A DNA stretch of 64,000 nucleotides. It comes from Longitalea arenae. GTDB taxonomy: Bacteria; Bacteroidota; Bacteroidia; Chitinophagales; Chitinophagaceae. The notes beneath the pieces were generated by a model. The model saw nothing but the letters and a program-made list of their open reading frames with translations. It did not search any database and was not told where the DNA came from. The stretch is from the NCBI RefSeq assembly GCF_016924755.1, contig NZ_JAFFJX010000013.1, forward strand, positions 1 to 64,000, read 5' to 3'. Below, piece after piece: positions 4,444-50,120 of the stretch (position 1 is its first letter; the number at the start of each line of letters is the position of its first letter). Position numbers and translations under genes: made by a program.

Positions 4444-4499
4444 GCGGAACGCGGAAACAGGAACGCTCAACGCACAACGTGCAACGCAAAACGCGGAAC
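4444..4499. repeat. Heptamer array, GCGGAAC/GCACAAC type, 8 units
   Basis: Eight consecutive in-phase 7-bp words: GCGGAAC, GCGGAAA, CAGGAAC, GCTCAAC, GCACAAC, GTGCAAC, GCAAAAC, GCGGAAC. Every unit conserves the AA at positions 5-6; the rest varies. It lies 31 bp upstream of the PL9 start. Confidence 0.85.
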
Positions 4500-4594
4500 T
4501 AACAAGCGCCAAGACTTGTTCAGATCATTTGATCCGAATAATTGATCTTATACGTTTACACCGGTGCTTTTCCCTTTAAACCATAGCCTTAAGA

Positions 4595-4636
4595 GTTAGG
4601 CGTTAAACGTTCGGCGTTACGCATTAAGCGTCAGGC
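4595..4636. repeat. Heptamer array, GTTAGGC/GTTAAAC type, 6 units
   Basis: Six in-phase 7-bp words: GTTAGGC, GTTAAAC, GTTCGGC, GTTACGC, ATTAAGC, GTCAGGC. Same period but different word family from the array 96 bp away. Confidence 0.8.
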
Positions 4637-5336
4637 ATAGCAGCCCCGCATAGTTCCTGTCAAAAACTACGTAAAGAATGGCTACACTATCTCTAGTGAA
4701 AATAACAGCAGCTATATAGCGGATGACATGCCCATTTGGGGAAGTGGTTCTGATAAAATAATAAGCAGGCAATCGCTATTAGCAATAACGGCATCAGGTA
4801 AACGGGCCGGATATACTTTCTGGGTAATGGTGGAAAACCGGGGAATGGGTATGAAAATAACTATAGGAAAGTTAAAAAAAGAAAGGAGTTATAGCAAGTG
4901 CATGGAAAGGTTTTTTTTACGCAAACGTTCCCGGAAACGTGATCCTTACAATTAACTATCGTACTACTACAACCGCAGCTATAAATCGTAACGGATATGA
5001 ACATGTCATTATAATTAACAAGCAGCATGCTGCTTTGCACCTTCGCTCCAGGTGCTGGCCCTGTAAAGCCTGCTGTTAGGGATTGCCGTTTGTGGCCCTG
5101 CATGACAAAGGTTTAAAACGCCAGCCGGCTTTTTGCATTATTTAACAAGCTGTAAACGATGCGCCTTTATAATTTTTTTATGTTAATGCGAAGTATTGTC
5201 TATCGAATTGACTATGAACTATTACAGCTATCGTAATGAAATGCTTTAACAATTGCCGTTTTTAATGGCACAGTTTTTCGCTTACTTCTCTTGTGCAGAA
5301 ATGATTTATTAATTGAAAAACCTAAAACGCAGATTT

Positions 5337-5846
5337 ATGAAACAGATTTTATACACAACCACAGCAGTAGTGATGAGTGCAGCTTTATTGATGACCTCCT
5401 GTAAAGACAATAACAGGTTGGCATCGGAAAGTATCCCGGTTGCGCCGGCCTCAGTTTCAGCAAAGGAATATGCTGAGTTTACCGCATGGAAACAACAACA
5501 GCAGCAACAGCAACTGGAACAGGAAAACACGGCTAAATACCGTACGGGTACGACAACTGCCAAACGCCCCGTTGTTGTACATAAACATTATACGACAAAC
5601 CGGGTAACCCCTGCTCCGAGAACTGCTCCTGTTACGCAGCCGGTTCAAACCAGGAAGAAAGGTTGGAGTAAAGCAGCTAAAGGAACCGCTATTGGCGCCG
5701 GTGCCGGTGCAGCCGCAGGTGCTATCCTGGTTAAAAAGAACAGAGCCCTGGGTGCGGTTATAGGTGGTGTAGTGGGTGGCGGTGTTGGTTACGGTATTGG
5801 CCGTTCGATGGACAGAAAGGATGGCAGGGTCGCCGCTAACCAGTAA
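5337..5846 (+). CDS. Glycine-zipper lipoprotein
   Basis: A protein of about 169 residues. The N-terminus MKQILYTTTAVVMSAALLMTSC is a lipoprotein signal with C22 as the lipidated cysteine. A Gln-rich stretch (QQQQQQQLEQ) and a Pro/Thr-rich linker follow. The C-terminus is a YMGG/17-kDa-antigen type glycine zipper (GTAIGAGAGAAAGA, then GGVVGGGVGYGIGRSMD), which in such families packs membrane-associated helices. A TTG eight codons upstream could start translation, but the ATG at 5337 gives the proper signal peptide. It is a single gene with its own terminator. The molecular role is unknown; an envelope location is likely. Confidence 0.85.
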   Translation: MKQILYTTTAVVMSAALLMTSCKDNNRLASESIPVAPASVSAKEYAEFTAWKQQQQQQQLEQENTAKYRTGTTTAKRPVVVHKHYTTNRVTPAPRTAPVTQPVQTRKKGWSKAAKGTAIGAGAGAAAGAILVKKNRALGAVIGGVVGGGVGYGIGRSMDRKDGRVAANQ

Positions 5847-5980
5847 CCGCGAAATGGACTGACACTCGACGCAGGATGTAGCAACTATAAGCATGGAATC
5901 AACCAGGTCTTAAACCGGCCAGCTTGAGACCGTGTACCTCAGCGATATTAAATTGATTGAATCGACATAAAATAAACAAG

Positions 5981-6011
5981 CCCTGGCGATACCGCCGGGG
6001 CCGTTTTTTAT
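5981..6011 (+). terminator. Terminator after the glycine-zipper lipoprotein
   Basis: Stem CCCTGGCG/CGCCGGGG (one mismatch) with loop ATAC, followed by CCGTTTTTTATTTGG. Confidence 0.7.
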
Positions 6012-6058
6012 TTGGTTTAATGGACGTGCGTGTTTTGTAATAGCCTGTATATCAAGTT

Positions 6059-6451
6059 TCAGGCCACCTGTAGCTGGTTGATCAGCGATAACACCATATT
6101 ATTCAGTTCTGCAAAAGGAGCGTCTTTCGCCACAAAGCCGTCTGCTCCCAGCTCTATTCCTTTATTGATATATATACCGCTATCTTCCATGGAAAAGAAA
6201 ATGATCTTCATGCCCGGCCAGTCCCGCTTCAAATGAACTGTAGTTTCAAGGCCATCCATTACCGGCATATTAATATCCAGTACACATATATCGGGCATTG
6301 CGTTGATCTGTAACTTATCAAGGAACTCCTGGCCATTCTGCGCTTCCATAACCACATTGTATCCCAATGAGTTAAGTCTAAATTTTACACTTTCACGGAT
6401 CAGGGGGTTGTCGTCAACAACGGCGATGGTGATTGCATGGTTTTTTTTCAT
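6059..6451 (-). CDS. Single-domain response regulator (CheY-like receiver)
   Basis: About 130 residues, essentially only a receiver domain. The acidic pair D13-D14 (AVVDDN), the phospho-acceptor D59 (CVLDINMP), the FFSM switch serine and the VAKD lysine are all present. No DNA-binding or enzymatic output domain follows, so it signals by protein contact, either through a partner kinase/phosphatase relay or by sequestering phosphate. The receiver most resembles those of NarL/LuxR-type regulators, so loss of an HTH domain is possible, but the stop codon is clean and the end is compact. No kinase lies next to it. A GTG 10 codons upstream is an alternative start. Confidence 0.88.
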   Translation of the reverse strand: MKKNHAITIAVVDDNPLIRESVKFRLNSLGYNVVMEAQNGQEFLDKLQINAMPDICVLDINMPVMDGLETTVHLKRDWPGMKIIFFSMEDSGIYINKGIELGADGFVAKDAPFAELNNMVLSLINQLQVA

Positions 6452-6852
6452 AGTTACTTCTTTCTTTTTCCGGTTTTTCACACTACACTAATCGTTAATA
6501 AGGGGTTTTGATAAAAGATATCCGCCCGGGCAGGGCACATACCTTTTATTACTAATACACCGGAGTGAACAGTTCGACAAAAGAATTTTCCAGAAAGGTC
6601 AAAAATGAATAGTTTTTCGTTTTTTTCTAAGTATTTGCACTTAGCCTTCAGGCAGATAAGCGGCATTTCGGGGCGCTGCCGCCCGTGAACCATCCAAAAA
6701 ATACTTGTGTTTTGGAAATTTCGAGCCAAATGCTGCCAGGCCGAATACCCTGGTCCATCCCCCTTCCTTATCAGTCCCCGCATCTTGCTTTCTACCTTGA
6801 AGCCGATCGCCGCCTCTTCCACCCGGGCAATAAGAAAAAGTTGACCCTGTAT
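6452..6852. other. Intergenic region, no supported gene
   Basis: About 400 bp between dinB and the receiver gene. A 114-codon minus-strand frame (6478-6822) has no recognised domain, no composition signal and no family resemblance, so it is not called. It may contain the promoter of the receiver gene. Confidence 0.5.
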
Positions 6853-8010
6853 TTATGTCCCTACCCCAACCGCCCTGATGATCGTTTTCTCCCCAAAGCG
6901 CTTTTTAACACTGTCAATCGCCTGGTACAGCCTGATCATTTCCTGGGTATCGTCGAACAGGCTGATCTGGTAATTGCCGGGAATGAGGTGAGTAAACCGG
7001 ATGCCCAATAACCGTACGAGCAGGCGGCGTTCGTACAACTTATTAAATAATGCAGTCGCCGTCTTTAATAAAATATGGTCGGCGTTTGTATAGGGAATGG
7101 TCATCTGTTTGGTAAAGGTCTCGAAATTTGAATAGCGCAGTTTTACAGTCACGCAACCGGTCAGCTTGTTTTGCTGCCGCAATTGAAAGGCGATCTCTTC
7201 TGTCATCCGTACCAGCTGATTATGCAGAAATTGGGTATCAATGGTATCCGTCTGAAAAGTGCTTTCCGTTGAAATTGATTTCTGTTCATGATAGGGAATA
7301 ACTGGTGCTTCATCGATCCCGTTCGCCTTCCGCCATAAATCGGTACCCGCTTTGCCCATGAGGTTTTCCAGCATCTCAAGCGGTATTTCACTCAGCAGCT
7401 TCACTGTTTCCACCCCCATTTTTAAGAGCTTGTAACCGGTTTCCCTGCCAATACCTGGAATTTTTATAATGCTGAGCGGCGCCAGAAAATTCTTTTCGTT
7501 GCCAAAAGGGATCTCCAGCTGCCCGTTCGGCTTCACTTCGTTGGTAGCCACTTTGCTCACCAATTTATTCGAGGCAAGGCCCCAGGAAATAGGCAGGCCA
7601 CTTTCCTTATTGATCTTTCGCTTCAACTGGTCGGTGAACTGCAGGCAACCAAAGAACCTGTCCATTCCCGTCAAGTCGATATAAAACTCATCGATGCTTG
7701 CTTTTTCAAATACCGGTACTGAATCTTTTATTATCTCAGTAACGAGCCGCGAATATTTACTATATGCTTCAAAATCGCTCTTTATAATAATTGCTTCAGG
7801 ACAGAGGCGGCGGGCAAGTTTCATGGGCATAGCGCTGTGAATACCAAACCTGCGGGCTTCGTAGCTACAGGCAGCCACCACACCGCGGTCGCTGCCACCA
7901 CCTACCAGTAATGGCTTACCGCAGAGCCTTGGATTTCGCAGAGTTTCTACCGATACAAAAAAAGCATCCAGGTCGAAATGGGCAATATGTCGGTCTTTTG
8001 ATAACAACAT
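6853..8010 (-). CDS. dinB: DNA polymerase IV (Y family)
   Basis: Error-prone translesion polymerase, 385 residues, near full family length. Catalytic carboxylates are intact: DLDAFF near the N-terminus (D13, D15) and SIDE in the palm (about residue 106). Finger motifs SYEARRFGI and MPM follow, then the helix-hairpin-helix segment (KIPGIGRETGYKLLKMG) and the little-finger domain. It lies 9 bp after the dnaE stop on the same strand, so the two are almost certainly co-transcribed. The catalytic residues separate it from ImuB, which pairs with DnaE2 in proteobacteria but is catalytically dead. Confidence 0.95.
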   Translation of the reverse strand: MLLSKDRHIAHFDLDAFFVSVETLRNPRLCGKPLLVGGGSDRGVVAACSYEARRFGIHSAMPMKLARRLCPEAIIIKSDFEAYSKYSRLVTEIIKDSVPVFEKASIDEFYIDLTGMDRFFGCLQFTDQLKRKINKESGLPISWGLASNKLVSKVATNEVKPNGQLEIPFGNEKNFLAPLSIIKIPGIGRETGYKLLKMGVETVKLLSEIPLEMLENLMGKAGTDLWRKANGIDEAPVIPYHEQKSISTESTFQTDTIDTQFLHNQLVRMTEEIAFQLRQQNKLTGCVTVKLRYSNFETFTKQMTIPYTNADHILLKTATALFNKLYERRLLVRLLGIRFTHLIPGNYQISLFDDTQEMIRLYQAIDSVKKRFGEKTIIRAVGVGT

Positions 8011-8019
8011 GGTGGCCTC

Positions 8020-10971
8020 CTATTTGATCGTATCGTAACTGCGTTTTTTAAATCCTGCCTTCACCATTTTACGCGCCTCAATACTGTACACCCCAAAGTC
8101 TTCGACCACCCTGCCGGTGATCGTATAAAAGCCACCGCTCTGCATCGGATAGGTTCTGGCTGCATCAGGAAAATGAACCGTATCTACCCAGTCGAGGTCC
8201 TTATCTATAAAAGTGCCGAAGAACATGATGTCATTATTTTTGGTTTGTACGTGTTTGCTGGCGATAAAATAAACCAGCACGGTAATTACTTTATGCAAAT
8301 GATTGCCTATTTCCCTGGCGGGAATGTATTTGTCAGGGTCATCATCTACCATATCAAATGGATTTGCCAAAGTAAAGCCGAGGATCTCTTTCTGATCATA
8401 CAGATCATCAATGGCATTGTCGGTTAATACAGGCATGTTGAACGCTACCGGCTTTTCTTTGAACAGGGATTCCCGCACCGGAATATGCGTTTTATTTTTC
8501 TTTTGCAGAAAATGAGCTTCCCATAACAATTGCTTTTTGGTTTTGCCGGTAAACCGGAACGCGCCGATGCTCACCAGCAGGTTAAGCTGTTCAAGCCCCA
8601 TATCCGTCCGCTCGATAAAGTCCTGCAAATGCAGGAAAACGCCCCCTGCCTTGCGTTCCTCCACGATCAGCTGCATCGAGCGCTCCTGCAGCGATCTTAT
8701 ATGGATGAAACCGGCATACACTTCATCGCCTTTAATGGCTGTATAAATTTCGCTGTTGTTTACACAGGGTGCATGAACGACGGCGCCGGTCTTCATCAGT
8801 TCAATAAAATATAATTCGGTGGAATAGAAGCCGCCAAAGTTGTTGATCACCGCTACCATAAATTCCCTGGGGTGGAAGGTTTTTAAATAGAGGCTCATAT
8901 AACTTTCCACCGCAAAACTGGCCGAGTGAGCTTTATTAAAACTGTAACCGGCAAAACTTTCCATTTGCCGCCATACTTCCTGCGCCAGGGCATCCGTGTA
9001 ACCGAGGCTGCGGCAATTGGCAAGGTATTTTTCTTTGATGTGCCAGAATTTACTGTTCGACCGGTATTTACCGCTCATAGCCCTGCGCAGGATGTCGGCC
9101 TCGCCTAACGATAAACCGGCAAAATAATGCGCGATCTTAATTACATCTTCCTGGAACACCATTACCCCAAAAGTTTCACGCAGGTGTTCTTCGAAAAGCG
9201 GATGCAGGTATACGACCTTTTCGCGGTTATGGAAGCGCGTGATATACTCCCGCATCATGCCCGATTTCGTAACCCCCGGCCGTATGATGGAGCTTGCCGC
9301 TACCAGCGTAACGTAATCATCGCACTGGAGCTTTTTCAGCAGTTGCCGCATAGCCGGTGATTCTATATAAAAACAACCGATGGTGTTCGCTTCGCGGATC
9401 TGCTTTTTAATAGCCTCATTATGCCGGAAATGGTGGAAATCATGAATATTCACATCAATGCCTTTATTGGCTTTGATCAGCCGCGGGCTTTCTTTAATAT
9501 GCCCTAAACCGCGTTGACTGAGAATGTCGAATTTGTTGATACCGATATTCTCTGCAACGAACATATCCATTTGCGTGGTGGCAAATCCCTTGGGTGGCAT
9601 AAACAGGGCGGCATACTCGTAAACAGGTTTCTCTGTTACCAGCATACCACAGGGATGTATTGATATATTGTTGGGAAAATTTTTAATGAGGCGGCCATAT
9701 TGCAATATGGTCCTGTGGATCTTATCGGCGGGTTCTGCAGCCCGCTGCAAAGTCTTGATCTCTTCAGGCGGTAAACCGAATACTTTGCCCAGTTCCATAA
9801 TGATAGCGTCATGCTGAAAAGTGGTATAAGCGCCCAGTAAAGCCACGTGCTTCCTGCCATATCGCTTGAAAATATAATCCATGATATCGTCGCGGTCTGT
9901 CCAGCTGAAATCAATATCAAAATCAGGTGGCGAGCTGCGCTCCGGATTGAGGAAACGTTCAAAATACAGGTTCAATTCAATAGGGTCCACATCGGTGATG
10001 CGCAAACAATAGGCTACAATGGAATTGGCTCCACTTCCCCGCCCTACATAATAAAATCCGCGCGACTGTGCATACCTGATCACATCCCAGTTAATAAGAA
10101 AATAAGCATTGAAGCCCAGGTCGTTGATGATCTTTAATTCTTTTTGCAGGCGCGCATCTGCTACTTTATTTTTCCGGCCATAGCGGGCTATCAGCCCTTC
10201 GGTAGCCAGCTTCTGCAGCAAGATGCGGTCATCTTCAGCGCTTGCGCTGAAGCATTTTTTATTTTTATCAACCCTGAAATCCATTTCGATCGTACAATTA
10301 TCGAGCAACCGGTAGGTATTGGTAACGATCGCCGGGAATTGTCTGAACTGTTCAAGCAAGCTGGCCGGTGAAACGAATGTTTCATCGGGCGAAGCCTGCG
10401 CTTCAACAGGCAACCTGGACAGTAGCATGTTTTTGTCGATGGCCCGTAACAAGCGGTGCACATTGAAGTATCGCTTGTTTTGAAAAGTGACCGGTTGCCG
10501 TACAAGCAGTTTGTGCTCCCATTTTTTCCAGTCGGCCCCAAACAACTTATTTAACTCGGTAGCAAGCAGCCCGATATATTCATGAGGCAACAGATCACCG
10601 GCAGCTTTTCTATCAAAGGGATAAATAACATACACATCAGCATTGTGCTGAAAATAATCGCTTGCATGGTCTGGAAAGTTCTTTTTATGTAGTAAATGAA
10701 TAGACAAAAACTCATTGATGCTGGCAAAACCACGGTTGTTCTTCGCTAATAGAATATAAAGCAGGGCATCTTCATTTCTTATTTCAACGCCCAATACCGG
10801 TTTGATGCCTTTTTGCCGGCAGACATGCACAAAGTCCCAGCAGTCACAGGTACAGTTAATATTGGTTAAAGCCAATGCCTGAACACCCTGCTCAACAGCG
10901 GTATTTACCAGCTCTTCGGTAGAAAAAGTTCCATATCGTATGCTGAAATAGGTTCTGCAATTCAAATACAT
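8020..10971 (-). CDS. dnaE: DNA polymerase III alpha subunit, short DnaE paired with dinB
   Basis: About 983 residues, shorter than the roughly 1160 of E. coli replicative DnaE. The polymerase core is intact, with PDFDIDFSW carrying two of the three catalytic aspartates. The N-terminal PHP domain (MYLNCRTYFSIRYGTFS, ALTNINCTCDCW) lacks the histidines and aspartate usually seen in metal-binding PHP domains (normally HxHxxYS and LTDH), so PHP exonuclease activity is unlikely. The size, the degenerate PHP and the dinB partner suggest an auxiliary, damage-related DnaE, analogous to DnaE2/ImuC, rather than the main replicase. An upstream in-frame GTG adds 9 residues; ATG at 10971 matches the usual DnaE N-terminus. 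Two palindromes lie just upstream. Confidence 0.92.
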   Translation of the reverse strand: MYLNCRTYFSIRYGTFSTEELVNTAVEQGVQALALTNINCTCDCWDFVHVCRQKGIKPVLGVEIRNEDALLYILLAKNNRGFASINEFLSIHLLHKKNFPDHASDYFQHNADVYVIYPFDRKAAGDLLPHEYIGLLATELNKLFGADWKKWEHKLLVRQPVTFQNKRYFNVHRLLRAIDKNMLLSRLPVEAQASPDETFVSPASLLEQFRQFPAIVTNTYRLLDNCTIEMDFRVDKNKKCFSASAEDDRILLQKLATEGLIARYGRKNKVADARLQKELKIINDLGFNAYFLINWDVIRYAQSRGFYYVGRGSGANSIVAYCLRITDVDPIELNLYFERFLNPERSSPPDFDIDFSWTDRDDIMDYIFKRYGRKHVALLGAYTTFQHDAIIMELGKVFGLPPEEIKTLQRAAEPADKIHRTILQYGRLIKNFPNNISIHPCGMLVTEKPVYEYAALFMPPKGFATTQMDMFVAENIGINKFDILSQRGLGHIKESPRLIKANKGIDVNIHDFHHFRHNEAIKKQIREANTIGCFYIESPAMRQLLKKLQCDDYVTLVAASSIIRPGVTKSGMMREYITRFHNREKVVYLHPLFEEHLRETFGVMVFQEDVIKIAHYFAGLSLGEADILRRAMSGKYRSNSKFWHIKEKYLANCRSLGYTDALAQEVWRQMESFAGYSFNKAHSASFAVESYMSLYLKTFHPREFMVAVINNFGGFYSTELYFIELMKTGAVVHAPCVNNSEIYTAIKGDEVYAGFIHIRSLQERSMQLIVEERKAGGVFLHLQDFIERTDMGLEQLNLLVSIGAFRFTGKTKKQLLWEAHFLQKKNKTHIPVRESLFKEKPVAFNMPVLTDNAIDDLYDQKEILGFTLANPFDMVDDDPDKYIPAREIGNHLHKVITVLVYFIASKHVQTKNNDIMFFGTFIDKDLDWVDTVHFPDAARTYPMQSGGFYTITGRVVEDFGVYSIEARKMVKAGFKKRSYDTIK

Positions 10972-28703: not shown

Positions 28704-28716
28704 AATCCCGATTTTT

Positions 28717-28787
28717 GGGATTTCGGGATTTCGGGATTTCGGGATTTTGAGATTTTGGGATTTTGAGATTTTGAGATTTTGAGATCC
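28717..28787. repeat. Octamer array, GGGATTTC/GAGATTTT type
   Basis: Eight in-phase 8-bp words (GGGATTTC x3, GGGATTTT, GAGATTTT, GGGATTTT, GAGATTTT x2) plus a partial unit, starting 13 bp after the dienelactone hydrolase stop. Confidence 0.88.
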
Positions 28788-28830
28788 ATTACTAAGCTGA
28801 ATCTTGAACAAATCCCGAAATCAAATCCTG

Positions 28831-28851
28831 AAATCAGAAATCAGAAATCAG
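28831..28851. repeat. Short heptamer run AAATCAG x3 overlapping the proline dehydrogenase stop
   Basis: Three perfect 7-bp repeats (minus strand TTTCTGA). They encode the last residues SDF and the stop codon of the proline dehydrogenase gene, read in the minus direction. Confidence 0.85.
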
Positions 28852-30073
28852 AAATTGCTTTTCTTCTTTCGATCTCTCTTTTAATTAGTCCCAGCTCCCG
28901 CCCTGTTTGTCCAGACACCGATGAATTCTCCTGTGCCCTGCGCATCAGGTAAGGGATCACGTCTTTAATGGGACCGAAGGGCAAATACTTACTAACCTTG
29001 AACGAACTTTTTGCCAGGTTAAAAGTGATATTATCGCTCATGCCATACAGTTGTGAGAAATGTACATGGGGATGATTATGCGGTATTCCCTTTTTATCAA
29101 GCAGTTCGGTAGTGTATAAATTGCTGTATTCGTTGTGTGAAGCCACTATCAGGGCAATGTGATCGAGATAGTCGACACAAAATTCAAGGGCCGCATTATA
29201 ATCGCGGTCTGTAGTTTGTTTATTGGGTTGAATGGGCGATGCATAATTCATGGCAGCAGCCCTTTTGCGCTCCTTTTCCATATAAGCGCCCCGAACCAGT
29301 TTCGCTCCCAGCGTAAAACCCTTTTGCCGGGCAACGGCAAAACTGTCTTTCAGGAACTGCAGCCGGTCGTGGCGGTATAACTGGATGGTATTGTAGATCA
29401 CCGGCTTTTGCCGGTTAAACCGTTCCATCATTTGCATCGTGAGCGCATCTACCGGATCCTGGATCCAGCTTTCTTCGGCATCTATTAAAACACCGATACC
29501 TTTGGCTGCCGCTACTTCACAGATCCGGGTAATACGTTGTTCAACCCGTTGCCATTCTGCCTGTTCTGCAGCTGTTAAGATCTCTGTATGTACTTTTCCT
29601 TCAAATCCGCTTTTAAGGGTGGCCGCTGCATCCAGTTTTTCCAGCAATGAGAACCGCGCCAACCCGGTAATCTTCACACTCATGAAAGGAATATTCGGCT
29701 GGGTGGCCGCATAATTAATCACCTTAATGAATTCATCACAGCCATGATCGAAATTCTCTTCGCCTTCCATACCTTCTACCCCATAATCGAGGATCACCTG
29801 CACATTGAATTGCTTCAATTTTGCGGCAACCGGCGCTGTTTCTTCCAGCGTTTCTCCTCCTACAAATTGTTCAAAAATGGTGTTGCGGATAATATTTTTA
29901 ATGGGAAGCCCTACTTTAATAGCCCAGGGTGTTAATCTTGTACCCAGTTTTACAAGGACCTGGTAACCCATGCTCGAAAATAGGAAGTGGGCCTTTTTTA
30001 ACTCTTTATCTGATTTATAAGCAAATGCATTCTCCGTATTCTCAAAAGATACGGCTACGGCGGTTTTCGACAT
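28841..30073 (-). CDS. putA: Proline dehydrogenase
   Basis: 410 residues, a monofunctional FAD-dependent PRODH that oxidises proline to pyrroline-5-carboxylate at the membrane. TIM-barrel motifs: DYGVEG, DAEESWIQ, KLVRGAYMEKER, VASHNEYS and QLYGMSDN, the last with the conserved FAD/proline contacts. The C-terminal RREIERRK is also typical. The last three residues and stop fall inside a heptamer repeat. A palindrome CTAAC-AAAT-GTTAG lies 5-18 bp upstream of the ATG. No P5C dehydrogenase gene is adjacent. Confidence 0.92.
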   Translation of the reverse strand: MSKTAVAVSFENTENAFAYKSDKELKKAHFLFSSMGYQVLVKLGTRLTPWAIKVGLPIKNIIRNTIFEQFVGGETLEETAPVAAKLKQFNVQVILDYGVEGMEGEENFDHGCDEFIKVINYAATQPNIPFMSVKITGLARFSLLEKLDAAATLKSGFEGKVHTEILTAAEQAEWQRVEQRITRICEVAAAKGIGVLIDAEESWIQDPVDALTMQMMERFNRQKPVIYNTIQLYRHDRLQFLKDSFAVARQKGFTLGAKLVRGAYMEKERKRAAAMNYASPIQPNKQTTDRDYNAALEFCVDYLDHIALIVASHNEYSNLYTTELLDKKGIPHNHPHVHFSQLYGMSDNITFNLAKSSFKVSKYLPFGPIKDVIPYLMRRAQENSSVSGQTGRELGLIKREIERRKAISDF

Positions 30074-30182: not shown

Positions 30183-30222
30183 ATCAAATTATCACATTAT
30201 CAAATTATCACATCATCAAATT
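30183..30222. repeat. Octamer array, ATCAAATT/ATCACATT type, 5 units
   Basis: Five in-phase 8-bp words: ATCAAATT, ATCACATT, ATCAAATT, ATCACATC, ATCAAATT. Lies upstream of the epimerase gene. Confidence 0.8.
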
Positions 30223-32099: not shown

Positions 32100-32195
32100 A
32101 TTATCACATTATCGAATTATCACATTATCGAATTATCACATTATCACATCAGCAAATCAGCACATCAGCACATCAGCTAATCAGCACATTAGCTA
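32100..32195. repeat. Octamer array, ATTATCAC to ATTAGCTA type, 12 units
   Basis: Twelve in-phase 8-bp words with no insertion or deletion: ATTATCAC/ATTATCGA alternate at the left, ATCAGCAC/ATCAGCTA in the middle and ATTAGCTA at the right end. The last unit contains the stop codon TAG (minus strand) of the acyltransferase gene. Confidence 0.92.
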
Positions 32196-33684: not shown

Positions 33685-34234
33685 AATACATCTTAAAGCT
33701 AATTCAAACGGGACATCCCGATGGCAACCGGAACATCCCGTTGAACGTTACTACCCAAATGAACCTGTATGTACTAAGTTATACTACATGACCGCTTGCT
33801 ACCGGCATTGCGGTAACAGCCATCGCTGTACGTAATGATTTTATGCTGACAATAGGTTGATCGAATGGTGAATGCCGGCTAGGCACTACAGTGAAGTGCG
33901 TAAAAGAACAGGAAAATACAGATGAATACAAAAGAAGTGTATGGCTTCTTCATAATGGCACGAATTAATTGGTTAACTACGCTTTCTTCCGGGTTTCTTA
34001 ATGAAGGAATCTCGAGATCAATACAATAGGATAGTTATAGGTTGTCCCCTGAATCTTGGTTGGTGTAACTGTATCGCAGATAGGATCAAGATTGTGTATC
34101 GGTGATTGCTGGCATAAATATATAACGCTCATTTTTTATATGCAAGCTTGTATACGACTTTTTTAATAACTAATAATCCGGGTCAAGCAACCAATAAGCA
34201 ATAGACGATAGACAATTGGCAATCAACGCAAACC
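33685..34234. other. Intergenic region before the heptamer array
   Basis: 550 bp with no gene. It includes GGGACATCCCGATGG with a near-repeat GGAACATCCCGTTGA about 25 bp on, and AT-rich sequence. A terminator for the HAD gene was not identified with certainty. Confidence 0.45.
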
Positions 34235-34360
34235 GGCAATCGATAATCGATAATCGGCAAGCGTCAATCGATAATCGACGATCGTCAATCGTCAATCGAC
34301 AAGCGACGATCGACAATCGGCAAGCGTCAATCGGCAAGCGACAATCGGCAAGCGACAATA
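34235..34360. repeat. Heptamer array, GNCAATC type, 18 units
   Basis: Eighteen in-phase 7-bp words without a single indel (GGCAATC, GATAATC, GGCAAGC, GTCAATC, GACGATC, GACAAGC, GACAATC and others). Position 1 is always G, position 5 always A and position 7 is C in all but the last. Less regular copies continue left to about 34211. It translates to a seven-residue repeat in any frame, producing a spurious 78-codon ORF. Confidence 0.95.
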
Positions 34361-34488
34361 GACATCGAAAGTCGCTCATACTCCATGATCCGTTTTTTTT
34401 TTGCATACCTGCTTATTATAAACGTATAACTTAATAACCAAAAACCATAAACTATGAACTGCACACATCAACTGTGAATTATGGAACT

Positions 34489-37431: not shown

Positions 37432-37487
37432 CAGTTGGCAGTTGGCAATTTGCAGTGTACAACTGCCAACTGCTAACTGCTAACTTG
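37432..37487. repeat. Heptamer array with internal inverted repeat, 8 units
   Basis: In-phase 7-bp words CAGTTGG x2, CAATTTG, CAGTGTA, CAACTGC x2, TAACTGC, TAACTTG. The first and last halves are complementary: AGTTGGCAGTTG (37433-37444) pairs perfectly with CAACTGCCAACT (37460-37471). It lies between two convergent stop codons and can form a hairpin in both transcripts. Confidence 0.9.
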
Positions 37488-41561: not shown

Positions 41562-41608
41562 CTTACTTGATTTTTACTTACGGGGAATCGCCCCTCGCTT
41601 TAATTAAT

Positions 41609-41640
41609 TTGATAATGTGCTAATTTGCTAATGTGCTAAT
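41609..41640. repeat. Octamer array, GTGCTAAT type, 4 units
   Basis: TTGATAAT, GTGCTAAT, TTGCTAAT, GTGCTAAT, upstream of the rplO start on the minus strand. Reverse complementary to the array at 41709-41740. Confidence 0.88.
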
Positions 41641-41708
41641 AAAAGAACGCGAAATTAATGAATTACCAATTTAAACCGGCAATCAGCTATTATTCAATGC
41701 GGTTTTCC

Positions 41709-41740
41709 ATTAGCACATCAGCACATTAGCTAATTAGCTA
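41709..41740. repeat. Octamer array, ATTAGCAC/ATTAGCTA type, overlapping the rpmD 3' end
   Basis: ATTAGCAC, ATCAGCAC, ATTAGCTA, ATTAGCTA. The rpmD codons for LAN and the stop TAG (41730-41741) lie within it. Confidence 0.9.
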
Positions 41741-41915
41741 ATTCTTCTACTTTTACCAGGTGGGTTACTTTGCGAACCATACCCAGGATCTGCGGAGTTG
41801 CTTCTACCTCTTTGGTAGCGTTCGTTTTATTCAAGCCCAGGGCCTGCAGCGTCAGTTTCTGGCGCTCAGGACGATCAATAGGACTTTTTACTAAAGTGAT
41901 TTTAATCTTTTTCAT
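41730..41915 (-). CDS. rpmD: 50S ribosomal protein L30
   Basis: 61 residues. IKITLVKSPIDRPERQ and LGLNKTNATKEVEATP are typical L30. ATG 41915 is used rather than a TTG three codons upstream. The final three codons, LAN, plus the stop codon coincide with the octamer repeat, so the end of the protein may have been altered by repeat insertion. Confidence 0.95.
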   Translation of the reverse strand: MKKIKITLVKSPIDRPERQKLTLQALGLNKTNATKEVEATPQILGMVRKVTHLVKVEELAN

Positions 41916-42933: not shown

Positions 42934-42980
42934 TGCTTTTATTTTTTGCCCTCCGATACTGCCGGAAAGCGAATGTTAAT

Positions 42981-43054
42981 GTGATAATGTGCTAATCTGC
43001 TAATGTGCTAATGTTTTCTTCAATTAGCACATTAGCACATTAGCTAATTAGCTA
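42981..43054. repeat. Opposed octamer arrays between rplF and rplR, hairpin-forming
   Basis: 42981-43012 is GTGATAAT, GTGCTAAT, CTGCTAAT, GTGCTAAT; 43023-43054 is ATTAGCAC x2, ATTAGCTA x2, with 10 bases between. The inner 15 bp pair perfectly and about 26 of 32 positions pair overall, giving a long intercistronic RNA hairpin. Confidence 0.92.
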
Positions 43055-43056
43055 AT

Positions 43057-43611: not shown

Positions 43612-43704
43612 AACTAATTCAGTTTTTAGTTTGTTGTTTATTGTTTCCGGCTGGCCCGACCGGTCAGCTCCTATAGGTTAAGAGCTTAATGTATCAGGCA
43701 ACCC

Positions 43705-43736
43705 CTTAGCACATCAGCACATTGGCTAATTAGCTA
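43705..43736. repeat. Octamer array after rpsH, 4 units
   Basis: CTTAGCAC, ATCAGCAC, ATTGGCTA, ATTAGCTA, ending four bases from the rpsH stop codon. Confidence 0.85.
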
Positions 43737-43740
43737 ATTA

Positions 43741-44139: not shown

Positions 44140-44246
44140 GTTTATTTTAAATTAAAACAGTTTTATAATTTTATTCAAGAGTAGTACCTGCTTACAGGCT
44201 TGCTCTCGTGTCTTGTGAGGCTTTCCGATACGTATCGGGCCTGCCC

Positions 44247-44516: not shown

Positions 44517-44625
44517 AATTATTTAAAATTTTGAGATTTTTAGATTTACAGATCCCGGGATTACCAATTCCAACCGTTTACTGCTGCTCCTGATTCCCGC
44601 CTCTCCTACACTTTATATTTATATC

Positions 44626-45195
44626 TTAATCCTTTTTTGCTCCTTTGAACGGCATGCCCAGCTCTTTCAACAGTTCATAAGCCTCTTCATTGGTTTGGGC
44701 AGTAGTTACAAAAGTGATATCCATACCTGTGATCTTGTTCACCTTGTCGATGTCGATCTCAGGGAAGATGATCTGCTCGGTAACACCCAGGGTATAGTTA
44801 CCACGGCCGTCGAATGCTTTATCGTTGATCCCTTTGAAGTCACGTACACGAGGTAATGAAGTAGCGATCAGCCTGTCGAGGAACTCGTACATTTTGGTGC
44901 CGCGCAAAGTAACGCGGGCGCCGATCGGCATATTCTTACGCAACTTAAAGTTCGAGATGTCTTTTTTAGACATGGTAGGCGTTGCCTTCTGACCAGAGAT
45001 CATTGTCAGCTCATCAATAGCCACATCCACGAGCTTCTTGTCAGAAACGGCTCCGTTCACACCGCGGTTGATACAGATCTTTTCCAAACGGGGACACTGC
45101 ATCACCGTGCTATAGCTGAAACGTTTCATTAAAGCAGGTACAACTTCTTTTTTGTACTTGTCTGCCAGCCTTGGAGTGTATTTTGTTGTAGACAT
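44626..45195 (-). CDS. rplE: 50S ribosomal protein L5
   Basis: 189 residues. [19 protein letters not shown] and [16 protein letters not shown] are typical of L5, which contacts 5S rRNA and P-site tRNA. Confidence 0.97.
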
Positions 45196-45263
45196 TTTTA
45201 TTTAGCTTAGCGCGTTATGTTTAATGCTTGCGCAAACAGCATAACGCAATTGATAATCGATAG

Positions 45264-45602
45264 TTATTTTATAGCTTCACCAGATTTTTTAGAAACACGC
45301 ACCAGCTTTCCTTCTTCACGGGTACGTTTTACTTTTACCCCGGCACCAGCTTTGGCATCCCACAGCATCACATTGGAGATGTGGATGGCAGCTTCTTTCT
45401 TTACAATACCGCCGCGGGTATTACGTGCAGAAGGCTTGGTATGGCGGGTAACAATGTTCACGCCTTCCACCAGCACACGCGACTTCTCCGGAAATACTTC
45501 CAGTACCTTGCGGGGTTTCTTAGCGTCTTTGTCGTCACCGGCAATAACTACTACGGTGTCGCCTTTTTTAATATTAAACTTTGGTTTGAATCTGTTGCTC
45601 AT
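45264..45602 (-). CDS. rplX: 50S ribosomal protein L24
   Basis: 112 residues. A KOW motif (KGDTVVVIAGDDKDAKKPRK) near the N-terminus identifies L24. ATG 45602 was chosen; the upstream frame start adds ten residues encoded by a heptamer repeat array. Confidence 0.96.
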   Translation of the reverse strand: MSNRFKPKFNIKKGDTVVVIAGDDKDAKKPRKVLEVFPEKSRVLVEGVNIVTRHTKPSARNTRGGIVKKEAAIHISNVMLWDAKAGAGVKVKRTREEGKLVRVSKKSGEAIK

Positions 45603-45610
45603 TTTATTTA

Positions 45611-45707
45611 AGCTTTTAGCTAAAAGCTGCAAGCTGCAGGCTTAAAGCCGTTTTCAATTATATTTCATGCAAGCGTGAAGCGCGGTGCTTACAGCTTGCA
45701 GCTTGTT
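45611..45707. repeat. Opposed heptamer arrays between rplN and rplX
   Basis: Five AGCTNNN words at 45611-45645 (AGCTTTT, AGCTAAA, AGCTGCA x2, GGCTTAA) and three GCTTNCA words at 45687-45707. AAGCTGCAAGCTG (45624-45636) pairs perfectly with CAGCTTGCAGCTT (45692-45704). Both arrays have a 7-bp period. Confidence 0.88.
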
Positions 45708-45709
45708 TT

Positions 45710-46078
45710 TTATAAAACTTCCGGAGCCAAAGAAATAATCTTCATGTATCCTTTATCACGCAACTCCCTGGCTACGGGTCCGAAAATACGGGTACCGCGT
45801 GGCTCATCTGACTGATTCAACAGCACTACGGCATTGTCATCAAACCGGATATAAGATCCGTCCTTGCGGCGTAATTTATTCTTTGTGCGAACAATTACCG
45901 CTTTGGTAACAGTGCCTTTTTTAATACCACCGGCCGGAATAGCATCCTTTACGGTCACTACAATTTTATCGCCTATTTTGGCGTAATCCTGGCCGCTGTT
46001 TCCCAGTACACGGATACACAGTACTTCCTTGGCGCCACTGTTATCAGCTACATTTAATCTGGACTCTTGCTGAATCAT
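45710..46078 (-). CDS. rplN: 50S ribosomal protein L14
   Basis: 122 residues. [18 protein letters not shown] and [19 protein letters not shown] are textbook L14. First gene of the spc half. Confidence 0.97.
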
Positions 46079-46198
46079 TTTATTAGCTTTTTAGCTCTCA
46101 GCCTTTGGCTCCCTTCCGGGAACCAATAGCGAATGATTAATAATTTATTTGAAATCGTCGTTGGTGAACAGGCTTGCATTCCTGCCCCAACAGCTATA

Positions 46199-46456
46199 TT
46201 ACTTCGCCTTTTCAACTACTTCAACCAGTCTCCAGCGTTTCGTTTTACTCAGGGGACGGGTTTCCATAATGCGAACAGTATCGCCTATGGTGCACTCATT
46301 TTTCTCATCATGAGCGTGGAATTTGGTAGTCTTCTTTACGAACTTACCGTAGATGGGGTGCTTTACTTTTCTTTCTACCGAAACAGTGATGGTCTTTTCC
46401 ATTCTGTTGCTGGTAACAACCCCAATTCTTGTTTTACGCAAATTTCTATCAGACAT
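46199..46456 (-). CDS. rpsQ: 30S ribosomal protein S17
   Basis: 85 residues. [20 protein letters not shown] and [20 protein letters not shown] define S17. ATG 46456 chosen; an upstream ATG would include octamer-array translation ([17 protein letters not shown]). Confidence 0.96.
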
Positions 46457-46474
46457 TATAAAAAATTTGATAAG

Positions 46475-46541
46475 TTGATAATTAGCAAATGTGATAATTA
46501 AAACCAACTAGCATATTAGCACATTGGCTAATTAGCACATT
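46475..46541. repeat. Opposed octamer arrays between rpmC and rpsQ
   Basis: 46475-46498: TTGATAAT, TAGCAAAT, GTGATAAT; 46515-46538: ATTAGCAC, ATTGGCTA, ATTAGCAC. The two blocks are nearly complementary (7 of 8 in the first two words). Confidence 0.85.
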
Positions 46542-46749
46542 ATTTTGCCAATTCCTTTTTTCTTAATTCTGTTTTTAAACGAGCCACATCCCTGCGCAGG
46601 TCGCGAATGCTCATCGGATTTTCCAGCGGAGAAATTGCATGCGCAAACTCCAGCTTTTTCAGCCGCAGCTCATCTTCCTGGATCCGGGCTTTCAGATCAG
46701 CCTCACTCATATCATTCAGGCTCTTTACAAAATCGATTCTCTTTGCCAT
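46540..46749 (-). CDS. rpmC: 50S ribosomal protein L29
   Basis: 69 residues. MSEADLKARIQEDELRLKKLEFAHAI... and IRDLRRDVARLKTELRKKE are typical of L29, near the exit tunnel. ATG 46749 chosen over an upstream start in the repeat. Confidence 0.96.
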   Translation of the reverse strand: MAKRIDFVKSLNDMSEADLKARIQEDELRLKKLEFAHAISPLENPMSIRDLRRDVARLKTELRKKELAK

Positions 46750-46780
46750 ATTAATAATTTGAAGATTTGATAAATAGCTC

Positions 46781-46804
46781 ATTAGCACATCAGCTAATTA
46801 GCAC
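46781..46804. repeat. Octamer array after rplP, 3 units
   Basis: ATTAGCAC, ATCAGCTA, ATTAGCAC, ending seven bases from the rplP stop codon. Confidence 0.85.
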
Positions 46805-46811
46805 ATTATGC

Positions 46812-47231
46812 TTATGCGCTATAGTCGCGTCTTACAATGAACTTGGTTTTAATGGGCAGTTTTTGAGCCGCCAGTTCCATGGCTTCTTTTGCTACTGCTT
46901 CTGATACCCCATCGCACTCGAACAAAATGCGACCTGGCTCAACTACTGCAGCCCAGAATTCAGGGTTACCTTTACCTTTACCCATCCTCACTTCAAGTGG
47001 CTTGCGGGTAATGGGTTTATCAGGAAATATACGGATCCAAACATTACCTTCACGCTTCATGGCGCGGGTCATAGCCTGACGAGCAGCTTCGATCTGACGG
47101 TTTGTTAACCAGATAGCTTCCTGAGCTTTCAAACCGAAAGAACCAAAAGAGATGGTAGTACCACGTTTGGCTACCTCGCGGATGCGGCCCTTTTGCGCTT
47201 TGCGGTGTTTCGTTCTTTTAGGCTGTAACAT
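46812..47231 (-). CDS. rplP: 50S ribosomal protein L16
   Basis: 139 residues. [19 protein letters not shown]-like [10 protein letters not shown] and [14 protein letters not shown] are L16 hallmarks. It helps organise the A-site of the 50S subunit. Confidence 0.97.
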
Positions 47232-47280
47232 TTATAAAACAATTTGATAATTAGAAAAATTGATACTTAACCAGGGGGCA

Positions 47281-48096
47281 TTAATGCTGACCACCTCCGC
47301 CGCCTCTGCGATCGCCGCGGTCTCCACCGCCTCTTCTGTCGCCACCGCCTCTTCTTTCGCCGCGATGACCACCATGGCCACCATGACCACCTTCACCTTC
47401 TCTTCTGTCTCTTCTGTCGTTCACATCGCTCTTACCGCCAACGAGGTTCGGGTTCAGATCTCTTTTACCCAGTACTTCACCTTTACAGATCCATACTTTG
47501 ATCCCGATCTTACCGTAAACAGTCAACGCAAATACGTTTGCGTAGTCGATATCCATACGCAGGGTATGCAATGGAGTACGACCTTGTTTGATCTCTTCGG
47601 TACGGGCAATTTCAGCACCACCCAAACGACCGCTGATCTTTATTTTGATACCTTCAGCACCCATGCGCAGTGCAGAAGCGATTGCCATTTTAATGGCGCG
47701 TTTGTAGTTGATACGGTTTTCGATCTGACGGGCGATGGTATCGCCTACGATCATCGCATCCAACTCGGGACGACGAATTTCGAGGATGTTGATCTGCACA
47801 TCTTCTTTACCTGTCAGTTTCTTCAGCTCTTCTTTGATGCGATCAACTTCGTTCCCACCTTTACCTATGATAATACCAGGCTTGGAAGTGTGAATGGTAA
47901 CAATCAGTTTATTCAGCGTACGCTCAATAACTATTTTAGAGATACCACCTTTATTGATACGGGCGTTCAGATAAGTTCTGATCTTGTTATCCTCGATCAA
48001 CTTGGTAGAAAAATCTTTTTTGTTACCATACCAGTTAGATTCCCAACCGCGGATAATCCCTAACCTGGCACCAATAGGATTCGTTTTCTGACCCAT
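47281..48096 (-). CDS. rpsC: 30S ribosomal protein S3 with Gly/Arg/His-rich tail
   Basis: 271 residues, about 40 more than E. coli S3. [20 protein letters not shown] and the KH motif ([18 protein letters not shown]) are standard. The last about 45 residues are a low-complexity tail ([20 protein letters not shown] repeats), unlike typical S3 and possibly RNA-binding. Confidence 0.97.
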
Positions 48097-48121
48097 TTAT
48101 TTTAATTTGAAAATTTGCTAA

Positions 48122-48463
48122 TTATTTAACATCAACGATTATGGTTACGTGGTTACTGCGCTTGCGAAGGCGATAAGCACGGCCTTGCGGGGCGGGTAAC
48201 ATTCTTTTCAAAGTACGTGCGCCGTCAACAAAGATCGTTTTCACAATTAAGCCGGCATCAGCAGCGCTTTGTCCTTCGTTCTTTTGCTCCCAGTTACTAA
48301 TGGCGCTCTTTAATAATTTATAAAGCGGTGTGGCAGAATGCTGAGGATGAAATTCCAGCAACGCTAATGCCTTTTCCACTTCAACACCACGTATTTCATC
48401 AGCCAGCAAACGCATTCTGCGGGGTGATGTGGGATAATTTCTAAGTTTTGCTACAGCTTCCAT
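48122..48463 (-). CDS. rplV: 50S ribosomal protein L22
   Basis: 113 residues. NYPTSPRRMRLLADEIRGV and FVDGARTLKRMLPAPQGRA, the tunnel-lining loop, are typical L22. Confidence 0.97.
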   Translation of the reverse strand: MEAVAKLRNYPTSPRRMRLLADEIRGVEVEKALALLEFHPQHSATPLYKLLKSAISNWEQKNEGQSAADAGLIVKTIFVDGARTLKRMLPAPQGRAYRLRKRSNHVTIIVDVK

Positions 48464-48520
48464 TTTTATTATTTCTGATTTCTGATCCCGGGTCCTTCAA
48501 CCTGGAATATTGAAATTTTA

Positions 48521-48793
48521 TTAACCAACTTTTTTACTTGAGTGTCCTTTGAACTGGCGCGTAGGAGCAAACTCACCCAGCTTATGACCAACCATAAATT
48601 CGGTTACATATACTGGTATGAACTTGTTGCCATTGTGCACAGCGAACGTATGACCTACAAAATCCGGAGTGATGGTAGAACGACGGCTCCAGGTTTTGAT
48701 CACACCTTTCTTTACTTTGCCATCGTTAATGCCAAGTACTTTATTCTCCAGTTTGGCGGCTACATAAGGACCTTTTTTTATTGAACGAGCCAT
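48521..48793 (-). CDS. rpsS: 30S ribosomal protein S19
   Basis: 90 residues. [17 protein letters not shown] and [20 protein letters not shown] identify S19. Confidence 0.97.
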
Positions 48794-48802
48794 AATTTTA
48801 AT

Positions 48803-48834
48803 TTGATAATGTGATAATTTGACAATGTGATAAT
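48803..48834. repeat. Octamer array between rplB and rpsS
   Basis: TTGATAAT, GTGATAAT, TTGACAAT, GTGATAAT. A short opposing piece ATCAGCACATT follows at 48841. Confidence 0.82.
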
Positions 48835-48849
48835 GAAATCATCAGCACA

Positions 48850-49689
48850 TTACTTCGCCAGCTTTTTGCCGTTCTTACGTTGAATGATCAGCTTATCGCT
48901 TCCTTTACCTGATTTACGTGTTTTCAGACCTTTGGCGTATTTACCCGTTCTGGAACGTGGGTGACCACCAGAAGCCTTACCTTCACCACCACCCATTGGG
49001 TGATCTACAGGGTTCATCGCAACACCACGGTTACGGGGGCGGATACCTCTCCAACGGTTACGACCCGCTTTACCCATCATTTCAAGGTTGTGGTCGCCAT
49101 TGCTTACTACACCTACTGTAGCATAGCAGTTGATGAGGATCTTTCTCAATTCACCGGAAGGCATTTTCAATACAGCGTATTTCTCTTCCTTGTTGGTGAG
49201 CTGGGCAGAAGTACCTGCACTGCGCACCAGTTTACCACCCTGGCCAGGTTGCATTTCGATGTTATGCACGTTAGTACCCAGTGGCATGTTCTTCATTTGA
49301 AGCGCATTTCCCACTTCAGGCGCTACGCTGTCGCCGCTCAGGATGGTAGCACCAACCTGTAAGCCCTGGGGCGCCAGGATATATCTTTTCTCACCGTCTA
49401 CATAGTTGATCAATGCGATAAATGCAGTACGGTTTGGATCATACTCAATAGAAGCTACGGTACCAGGAATATCTTTCTTGTTGCGTTTGAAGTCGATGAT
49501 ACGGAACATCTTCTTGTGTCCGCCACCAATATAACGCATAGATCTTCTACCCTGGGCATTACGGCCGCCGGTTGCTTTTACTTTCTCCAGCAGGCTTCTT
49601 TCTGGTGTATCGGTAGTGATTTCAGCATACGCATTTCCAATTCTCCAACGCGTACCTGCTGTTACCGGTTTGTATTTTTTAAGTGCCAT
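48850..49689 (-). CDS. rplB: 50S ribosomal protein L2
   Basis: 279 residues. [20 protein letters not shown], with the conserved His, is the L2 core near the peptidyl-transferase centre. Confidence 0.98.
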
Positions 49690-49767
49690 GTTTTCTTCTT
49701 ATACTGTTATAAAATCTTGGTCAATACTTTGCGGCGATTGACTCGCCATTCTTACTCCGCGGGCGGA

Positions 49768-50067
49768 TTAAATGTTAGCGTACAGATCGATGCTCTCCCC
49801 TTCTGCTACCTTCACATACGCTTTTTTGTATGCCGGTTTTACACCGGAAATAAAGCCGGATTTAGTGAACCGGTTCTTTGCTTTACCGGGCACTACCACC
49901 GTATTTACTTCTGTAACCGTTACACCGTAAAAGCTTTCAATGGCTTTTTTAATTTCCAGTTTGTTGGCTTTGCGGTTTACCCGAAAAGCAAAAGTTCTTT
50001 TTGCATCAGAAAGCTTGTTGCTTTTTTCGGTAACGATCGGTTTTATTAATACTTCTGTGAGTTTCAT
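49768..50067 (-). CDS. rplW: 50S ribosomal protein L23
   Basis: 99 residues. LIKPIVTEKSNKLSDAKRTF and ESFYGVTVTEVNTVVVPGK are L23. ATG 50067 chosen over an upstream start without similarity. Confidence 0.96.
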   Translation of the reverse strand: MKLTEVLIKPIVTEKSNKLSDAKRTFAFRVNRKANKLEIKKAIESFYGVTVTEVNTVVVPGKAKNRFTKSGFISGVKPAYKKAYVKVAEGESIDLYANI

Positions 50068-50104
50068 AATACTTTGTTTGAAAATTGGTGAATTCAATCA
50101 GCCC

Positions 50105-50120
50105 ATCAGCTAATTAGCAC
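50105..50120. repeat. Octamer words after rplD, 2 units
   Basis: ATCAGCTA, ATTAGCAC, close to the rplD stop codon (50124). Short form of the array. Confidence 0.6.

Follow-up and report, generated by a model that had tools for sequence, protein, structure and literature searches.

Degenerate 7- and 8-bp tandem-repeat arrays with a strand polarity in the intergenic DNA of Longitalea arenae

Results

Arrays of 7- and 8-bp words in intergenic spacers

The 64,000-nucleotide stretch analysed here (the window, G000:C3:1-64000) belongs to the draft genome of Longitalea arenae (G000; 7.28 Mb, 40 contigs) and carries, between its genes, tandem arrays of degenerate 7- or 8-bp words. Ribosomal-protein genes occupy 41 to 51 kb of the window. 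When ribosomal protein L6 is compared, the closest named relatives belong to the Chitinophagaceae (PMP191F, 85%; Paraflavitalea, 84%), the records closest to the window being possibly excluded from that comparison. An early idea of a cyanobacterial host was dropped, a search for photosystem families having given no match. Genes were called with a hexamer model written for this analysis, with approximate start positions, and array score thresholds varied among analyses (11, 12 or 13). A stricter array list places 19 arrays in the spacers of the window, many arrays forming inverted pairs, a feature absent from the first-pass annotation of this DNA. The individual features are as follows (TRF, Tandem Repeats Finder; G007, the sister species, which served as the comparison genome).

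4444..4499 (+), period-7 array of AACGCNN words, upstream of the gene for a beta-helix/sorting-domain protein (1969-4413, minus strand); TRF
4589..4636 (+), period-7 array of GCGTTNN words, orientation opposite to 4444-4499
28713..28785 (+), period-8 array (GGGATTTC/TGAGATTT), located between convergent genes and 9 bp past a stop; pairs with the inverted arm at 28809-28855
28809..28855 (+), C-richer inverted arm (AAATCCCGAAATC, GAAATCA); TRF and inverted-pair search
30183..30221 (+), period-8 array ATCAAATTATCAC; the G007 site has period-7 words of other families
32100..32192 (+), period-8 array ATTATCAC to ATCAGCAC, adjoining the stop of a minus-strand gene at 32193
34189..34364 (+), period-7 array GNCAATC, exceeding all others of the window in length; both genes lie over 240 bp away
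34433..34460 (+), period-7 array of AAACCAT-type words; array list
37432..37485 (+), inverted period-7 pair CAGTTGG/CAACTGC between convergent genes
41605..41640 (+), period-8 arm between rpmD and rplO, with the identical sequence in G007
41708..41743 (+), opposite period-8 arm, crossing the rpmD stop
42974..43056 (+), inverted period-8 pair adjoining the rplF stop; strong hairpin in 9/9 genus spacers compared, sequence varies
43708..43740 (+), period-8 array adjoining the rpsH stop; other species have different words or different hairpins
45607..45642 (+), period-7 AAGCTGC array between rplN and rplX; some other species of the genus have AACGC words
46470..46543 (+), weak inverted period-8 pair, under threshold in L. 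arenae and over threshold in G007
46757..46808 (+), period-8 array in the rplP/rpmC spacer
48799..48842 (+), period-8 array in the rplB/rpsS spacer

TRF recovers the repeats at the sites named in the first-pass annotation, apart from 46475, which falls under the array threshold and is visible as an inverted pair only; the repeat at 4595 is found, although at period 14. A lag scan of the window (21/30 matching positions) yielded five segments at lag 7 and ten at lag 8, none in each of five dinucleotide shuffles, and 0-1 segments at lags other than multiples of 7 or 8.

The same holds across the genome, of which 1.58 of 7.28 Mb were sampled in all. Period counts were taken from 1.2 Mb on two other contigs: 205 kb of intergenic DNA contained 101 period-7 and 87 period-8 segments, against 0 and 1 in dinucleotide-shuffled spacers and 8 and 0 in 994 kb of coding DNA. 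Intergenic period-7/8 arrays are thus real and genome-wide and avoid gene bodies, as had been proposed; neither equal density in coding or shuffled DNA nor a lack of positional preference was found. The proposal that periods are exactly 7 or 8 holds in part: both dominate, but periods 9 and 11 gave 11 segments each, and 15, 18 and 22 also occur. Periods 4-6, 10, 12 and 13 gave 0-1 each, and multiples or sums (14, 15, 16, 18, 21, 22) were also raised. Degenerate period-9 (AGTCAAANN) and period-11 (e.g. AGGTAAAGAAG) arrays lie at C11:82983, 171075, 297216, 722491, 447387-447674 and 627524, so that 7 and 8 are not the sole favoured steps. At C22:164385-164581, an array arm and its inner flank are repeated three times at a 54-bp spacing, a higher-order duplication.

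With a lower cut-off, the 1.2 Mb contained 235 arrays in 156/841 spacers (convergent 38/123, tandem 92/579, divergent 25/137, stretch start 1/2). Neighbouring units lie 0-2 bases apart in 929/1183 cases, and the units are therefore mixed while their phase is kept, as first described. The pattern ATTAGCNNATTAGC has 199 copies in the genome; read backward, it has none.

Arrays also occur elsewhere. Eighty named loci (mostly Bacteroidota, 1.45 Mb, coding DNA left in) contained 71 period-7 and 44 period-8 segments and 2-6 segments at periods 4, 5, 10, 11 and 13, with at least one period-7/8 segment in 35/80. Among 20 further genomes sampled for 40 kb each, ten had spacer arrays and ten had none; of the latter, G005, G010, G011, G013 and G019 show period-7/-8 segments in their ribosomal locus. 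In another genus of Chitinophagaceae (G018; L241, L242), arrays occupy 11/18 sampled spacers and consist mostly of AT-rich words foreign to the L. arenae vocabulary.

Placement and inverted pairs

Arrays crowd towards stops. In tandem spacers, 27% of 134 arrays are found no more than 6 bp from the upstream stop (random, 4.7%), compared to 8.2% on the start side (random, 4.8%); of the 60 convergent arrays, half are at most 12 bp from a stop (random, 21%), and the 38 divergent arrays show no crowding at gene ends. A reverse-complement partner in the same spacer (score at least 12) was found for 114/235 arrays, against 3 with shuffled spacers and 30 using the complement of another array; the gap between the arms has a median of 63.5 in L. 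arenae. Within pairs, the order of unit variants is not matched between the arms (mean z -0.20 for 46 L. arenae pairs, -0.34 for 44 G007 pairs), with no significant excess in the remaining groups (35 pairs). We therefore rejected recent snap-back copying as the origin of the pairs. In loci L227-L256, from other genera, the arms of some pairs appear by eye to mirror each other exactly, variants included; tested as a group, the 9 pairs gave no significant result (P ≤0.05 in 1). A T/A tail follows 13/112 array hairpins, which do not show the compact stem with a T-run typical of intrinsic terminators.

Strand polarity of arrays close to genes

Within 60 bp of a gene, the G-richer strand of the array reads away from that gene in 186/219 L. 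arenae arrays, compared to 31/62 beyond 100 bp. The corresponding counts in G007 are 137/178 and 24/45; arrays of the two genomes are partly common by descent, and the main counts are therefore given apart. By distance, the proportion obeying this rule is 0.83, 0.87, 0.73 and 0.80 in four bins up to 60 bp, 0.60 at 60-100 bp, 0.49 at 100-150 bp, 0.58 at 150-250 bp and 0.31 beyond (n=13). It peaks within 15 bp of starts (0.96, n=46) and is kept within 60 bp in spacers with a single array (0.77 and 0.73). The window follows suit, with 14/19 arrays obeying and 5 not. The rule strengthens with the imbalance of G over C (54/80, 85/115, 100/112, 84/90), T-A imbalance being without influence (logit 0.02 vs 1.17).

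All types of gene end behave alike within 60 bp: convergent stops 101/121, tandem stops 111/147, tandem starts 78/90 and divergent starts 33/39. The likeness of convergent and tandem stops speaks against avoidance of Rho sites as the cause. Among bordering arrays with G/C imbalance, 320/397 have no GGG or CCC run, and 264/320 of these obey the rule, as do 59/77 with such runs; mostly quadruplex-free words thus follow the same placement, and quadruplexes are not required. Viewed from the G-rich strand, 416/570 arrays of L. arenae and G007 lie nearer to the open reading frame (ORF) on their 5′ side.

The polarity reappears in inverted pairs, for which no gene calls were used and, across groups, coding DNA was left in. 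The G-richer arm comes first in 41/46 non-tied pairs of L. arenae, 38/48 of G007, 6/7 of other genus members, 8/9 of other genera and 10/11 of the named loci; in cyanobacterial plasmids it does so in 6/8, which alone is not significant. Outside L. arenae and G007, the groups together give 30/35. By position, the G-rich arm is first in 43/50 pairs with both outer ends within 60 bp of genes and in 37/43 with one, the same array possibly entering several pairs in such distance counts. Non-array hairpins of the same spacers show no polarity (G-rich/C-rich first, 65/80 without and 64/80 with a T/A tail), as opposed to array hairpins (67 vs 9 without, 8 vs 2 with a tail), and the polarity is hence not a general property of hairpins.

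A lineage-bound vocabulary shared genome-wide

A private word family had been ascribed to each locus; instead, 210/235 arrays lie within two mismatches of eight words. The largest family comprises 58 arrays and 253 units, of which eight words make up 179, varying chiefly by A/G, G/T and C/A at three positions. Exact L. arenae words occur in 13/41 arrays of other genus members (1.5 expected) and in 8/73 arrays of the loci nearest in L6 (2.9 expected). They are absent from the sampled other genera (0/13) and from G018 (0/22; 0.6 expected each), and distant loci show no sharing (4/67, 2.2 expected); no universal word dictionary was found. The vocabulary is bound to the lineage.

Once arrays were masked, only 6/220 array spacers matched another spacer; interiors are not shared, and we rejected a dispersed mobile element or miniature inverted-repeat transposable element (MITE). 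Words shared genome-wide without shared flanks indicate more than independent slippage at each locus, in agreement with the first-pass annotation. Mobilisation by REP-associated tyrosine transposases (RAYT) was likewise discarded, with two RAYT-type matches in the genome. The density of AATACAG, a candidate inner motif, is raised only 1.4-fold in spacers (30.5 vs 22.3 per 100 kb); among its 116 copies there, 14 come after an array end, 9 are flanked by arrays on both sides and 3 come before an array. Arrays of one spacer share a word in 170/408 pairs, compared to 26/408 random pairs. Along the chromosome, no clear clustering of words was observed (54/392 pairs less than 4 kb apart; permuted 43 ± 6, maximum 61), and local copying along it was set aside. 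Array-end phases are non-uniform, which the information content of the words could explain, and they were given no weight.

Divergence from the sister species

Of 143 orthologous spacers, 47 have arrays in both species, 16 in G007 only, 5 in L. arenae only and 75 in neither. Of 62 comparable sides, 37 have the same word, 24 a different word and 1 its reverse complement (6.9% same expected); spacers comparable on both sides give no indication of joint change (both same, 3; both different, 3; mixed, 7; one side complemented, 1). Array positions are identical about as often as other spacer positions (0.725 vs 0.730, n=50). Arrays thus diverge like neighbouring intergenic DNA, which lends no support to the earlier suggestion of selection for spacing. 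In spacers with arrays in both species, pairing between cognate arms is no stronger than in cross-species chimeras (13.82 vs 13.22, P 0.35, n=41). Tandem spacers show no wobble excess (91 G.U vs 103 A.C); convergent spacers gave 48 G.U and 27 A.C and divergent spacers 16 and 20, in counts that one array may enter through several pairs. From the arm comparison and the tandem counts, we rejected base-pair selection on the arms.

Hairpins and other conserved elements

Post-stop hairpin strength is shared between L. arenae and G007 at 62-80% identity (rho 0.52, n=52). Below 62%, sharing is not significant (5 both, 6 and 7 single, 21 none; P 0.26, n=39). In the rpsH-rplF spacer, z falls below -3 in 5/10 species, with unrelated stems. 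Rfam matches in the window are limited to a tRNA.

Two further elements were observed in the ribosomal-protein region. At 43655-43695 (rpsH-rplF spacer, minus strand), L. arenae has, upstream of rplF, a conserved element, TACATTAAGCYCTTA.CCTATAGGRGCTGACCGGT, that recurs in genus loci L006-L011 and L013 and in L035, from another member of the Chitinophagaceae. In its stem, T-A is exchanged for C-G from one species to another, and an RNA element not yet described is therefore possible. At 45195-45264 (rplX-rplE spacer), a compact hairpin has the stem GCGTTATG/CATAACGC in L. arenae, L006 and L007 and GTGTTATG/CATAACAC in L010, a compensatory change.

Discussion

Origin of the arrays and of their polarity

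The reading that we favour, tentatively and at somewhat less than an even chance, is that the arrays are degenerate tandem repeats made and turned over by mutation and not kept for a function. A neutral-like rate of change, arms that do not match, interiors that are not shared and a patchy distribution all point towards mutation as the origin, with copying of words bound to the lineage. The 7- and 8-nt steps dominate and are nearly confined to spacers, where register errors of 7 or 8 nt in DNA synthesis would lengthen and shift the repeats. Words are common genome-wide without common flanks; existing arrays may template new ones elsewhere by short-patch template switching, and a lineage would thereby retain its vocabulary while sites come and go. 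The polarity near genes, which fades with distance, needs an added asymmetry, the simplest being that array behaviour is directional by the G-richer strand and that arrays aimed at a gene are purged by selection. Inverted arms would fold into hairpins as a by-product, a few of which, such as that after rplF, could have been recruited as mRNA structures.

Several observations weigh against this explanation. Copying of words in trans is something that we only infer. Gaps in multiples of 7 or 8, such as unit slippage or the unit gain and loss of phase-variation repeats would leave, are as frequent in arrays (30/204) as in other spacer DNA (53/390), in a strongly diverged species pair, and identity to G007 along the G-rich strand shows no clear trend. 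Inner units are slightly more degenerate than gene-side units; directional growth gave no signal, either in the identity trend or as newest units at the inner end, and was set aside. Where an array is present in one species only, cognate arms have a slight advantage (10.34 vs 9.18, P 0.059, n=19). Spacers with one array run opposite to the rule at 60-150 bp (0.32, n=31), and the G-rich arm is still first in 20/27 pairs with both outer ends beyond 60 bp and in 11/17 beyond 100 bp. Closeness to a gene border therefore does not account for all of the polarity, and these distant pairs would allow a rule acting on the pair as a whole. Array spacers contain fewer classical terminators (tandem 16/213 vs 84/525, convergent 27/88 vs 35/78). 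Finally, the rplF-rplR spacer, obtained for 9 of the 10 genus genomes, folds in all 9 into a strong hairpin directly past the rplF stop (z -5.6 to -7.7), despite a mean identity of 0.70 and a main stem that is not built from words in L006 and L007; this hairpin may be an exception to hairpins being mostly by-products.

The last two observations, together with the crowding at stops and the hairpin strength shared at intermediate identity, suggest functional RNA hairpins, whose arms would fold past the stop and protect upstream mRNA, set the stoichiometry of operons such as that for ribosomal proteins, or end transcription, with their sequence left free provided that the hairpin persists. Inverted repeats are also reported to peak past stops in bacteria generally (PMC13155455). 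We nevertheless regard this explanation as rather unlikely: the arms show neither a unit-order match nor significant co-evolution, the transcribed strand of tandem spacers has no wobble bias, strength is not significantly shared below 62% identity, arrays also adjoin starts and occur in divergent spacers, and the window has no Rfam match besides the tRNA. Selection on transcript composition near gene borders, with few G ahead of starts and few C past stops, might alone orient random arrays. Consistent with this, array-less spacers are G-poor in the last 25 nt ahead of starts (G-C skew -0.102, compared to -0.193 in array spacers), and the polarity peaks close to starts. However, array-less spacers show no C avoidance in the first 25 nt past stops (+0.015), where array spacers are G-rich (+0.187), convergent and tandem stops are similar, which speaks against a Rho-site cause, and non-array hairpins have no polarity; we consider composition alone improbable.

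A further idea is directional writing, in which genome-specific G-richer words would be added to free 3′ ends in the fashion of telomere repeats, an RNA or protein template defining the vocabulary. Words written onto both ends of a healed break would leave inward-pointing arrays of one family on both sides. Such writing would fit the recurrence of one word in opposite orientation within a spacer without matched unit order, the G-rich-first order within and outside the two main genomes, its absence from non-array hairpins of the same spacers and partial survival far from genes, and a genus-wide vocabulary persisting while words at sites change. It is at odds with arms usually tens of bases apart, with between-arm sequence sometimes similar in G007 (C3:41561), with a single-array polarity that fades beyond 60-100 bp and with the lack of any sign of newest units at the inner end; a search confined to RAYTs identified no enzyme or template. 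We accordingly hold it to be quite improbable. Least probable in our estimation, a long shot, is the broader proposal of a process, not confined to a single phylum, that would write lineage-specific 7/8-nt words in a direction guided by the G-richer strand, so that repeats flank gene borders, maybe through template-directed 3′-end extension at breaks. The mutational reading, with purging of gene-directed arrays, is the one we retain.

Relation to described repeats

The first-pass annotation knew of no described mechanism or function for such repeats, yet repeats of this kind have been described. Mazel et al. are said to have described in 1990 the short tandemly repeated repetitive (STRR) sequences of filamentous cyanobacteria. 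The arrays resemble STRRs in their period-7 tandem units with internal variation, their intergenic position and their many copies, but 8-bp words are here about as common, many word families coexist, and the host belongs to the Bacteroidota, with a vocabulary unshared even with distant Bacteroidota. The arrays work like STRRs and, on grounds of host and common origin, are not classed as STRRs. According to PMC2670836, STRRs are 7-bp intergenic tandem repeats, hairpin-capable and of unknown function; it also cites a title by Jackman & Mulligan (1995), ‘highly variable but structured intergenic regions’.

The quadruplex-forming heptamers GGGAATC and GGGGA(C/T)T of Xanthomonas and Nostoc (Rehm et al, 2015; PMC4692102) are reported as intergenic, arranged in inverted pairs, closer to the ORF lying 5′ of them, in whichever direction it is read, and at sites mostly shared between species with variable length, with no regulatory role found. 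Our arrays share the intergenic position, the inverted pairs, the strand placement (here 416/570) and the recurrence of sites between species; they differ in that those words are of one quadruplex type, whereas here several 7- and 8-mer families occur, mostly without GGG/CCC. MacGregor (2015; PMC4679880) describes TAACTGA direct repeats, with five Bacteroidetes included and some accompanied by other heptamer repeats. These are likewise intergenic, but consist of one exact heptamer, lying in the main genome mostly just upstream of starts, and the introduction and Bacteroidetes section of that paper contain no strand rule or octamers. The register errors of 7 or 8 nt invoked above follow a polymerase-contact idea of Mrazek (2007), recounted in both PMC4679880 and PMC4692102. 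In the P6b stem of the Nostoc tRNA-Leu intron, one of two degenerate heptamer classes repeatedly replaced the other (PMC4476775); degenerate heptamers build a stem there too, although at a single site within a group I intron. Among the matches listed from the open-licence PMC literature, none describes such repeats for the family Chitinophagaceae.

Repetitive extragenic palindromic (REP) sequences and bacterial interspersed mosaic elements (BIME), associated with RAYT transposases, are intergenic and hairpin-forming. The arrays are so too, but have no fixed palindrome and no shared interior, and the genome holds only the two RAYT-type matches.

Significance

Already known, as far as these sources go, are intergenic heptamer repeats and, for the quadruplex-forming heptamers of Xanthomonas and Nostoc, placement of the G-rich strand. 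The new regularity concerns direction: for the most part within some 60 bp, the G-richer strand is oriented outward from the nearest gene. Earlier reports of heptamer repeats concerned single species, with discussion centred on quadruplexes, regulation, polymerase slippage or horizontal transfer. In Bacteroidota, we find a similar period and the same placement of the strand for many words that are unrelated and mostly quadruplex-free, and a similar, still unexplained pattern in other bacterial groups gives the finding wider weight. The polarity rule is a sharp, testable regularity. Mutational arrays would expose a mode of error at 7/8 nt in replication or repair; functional ones would mark gene borders genome-wide. 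Directional word writing, if true, would amount to a telomere-like activity in bacterial chromosomes without telomeres.

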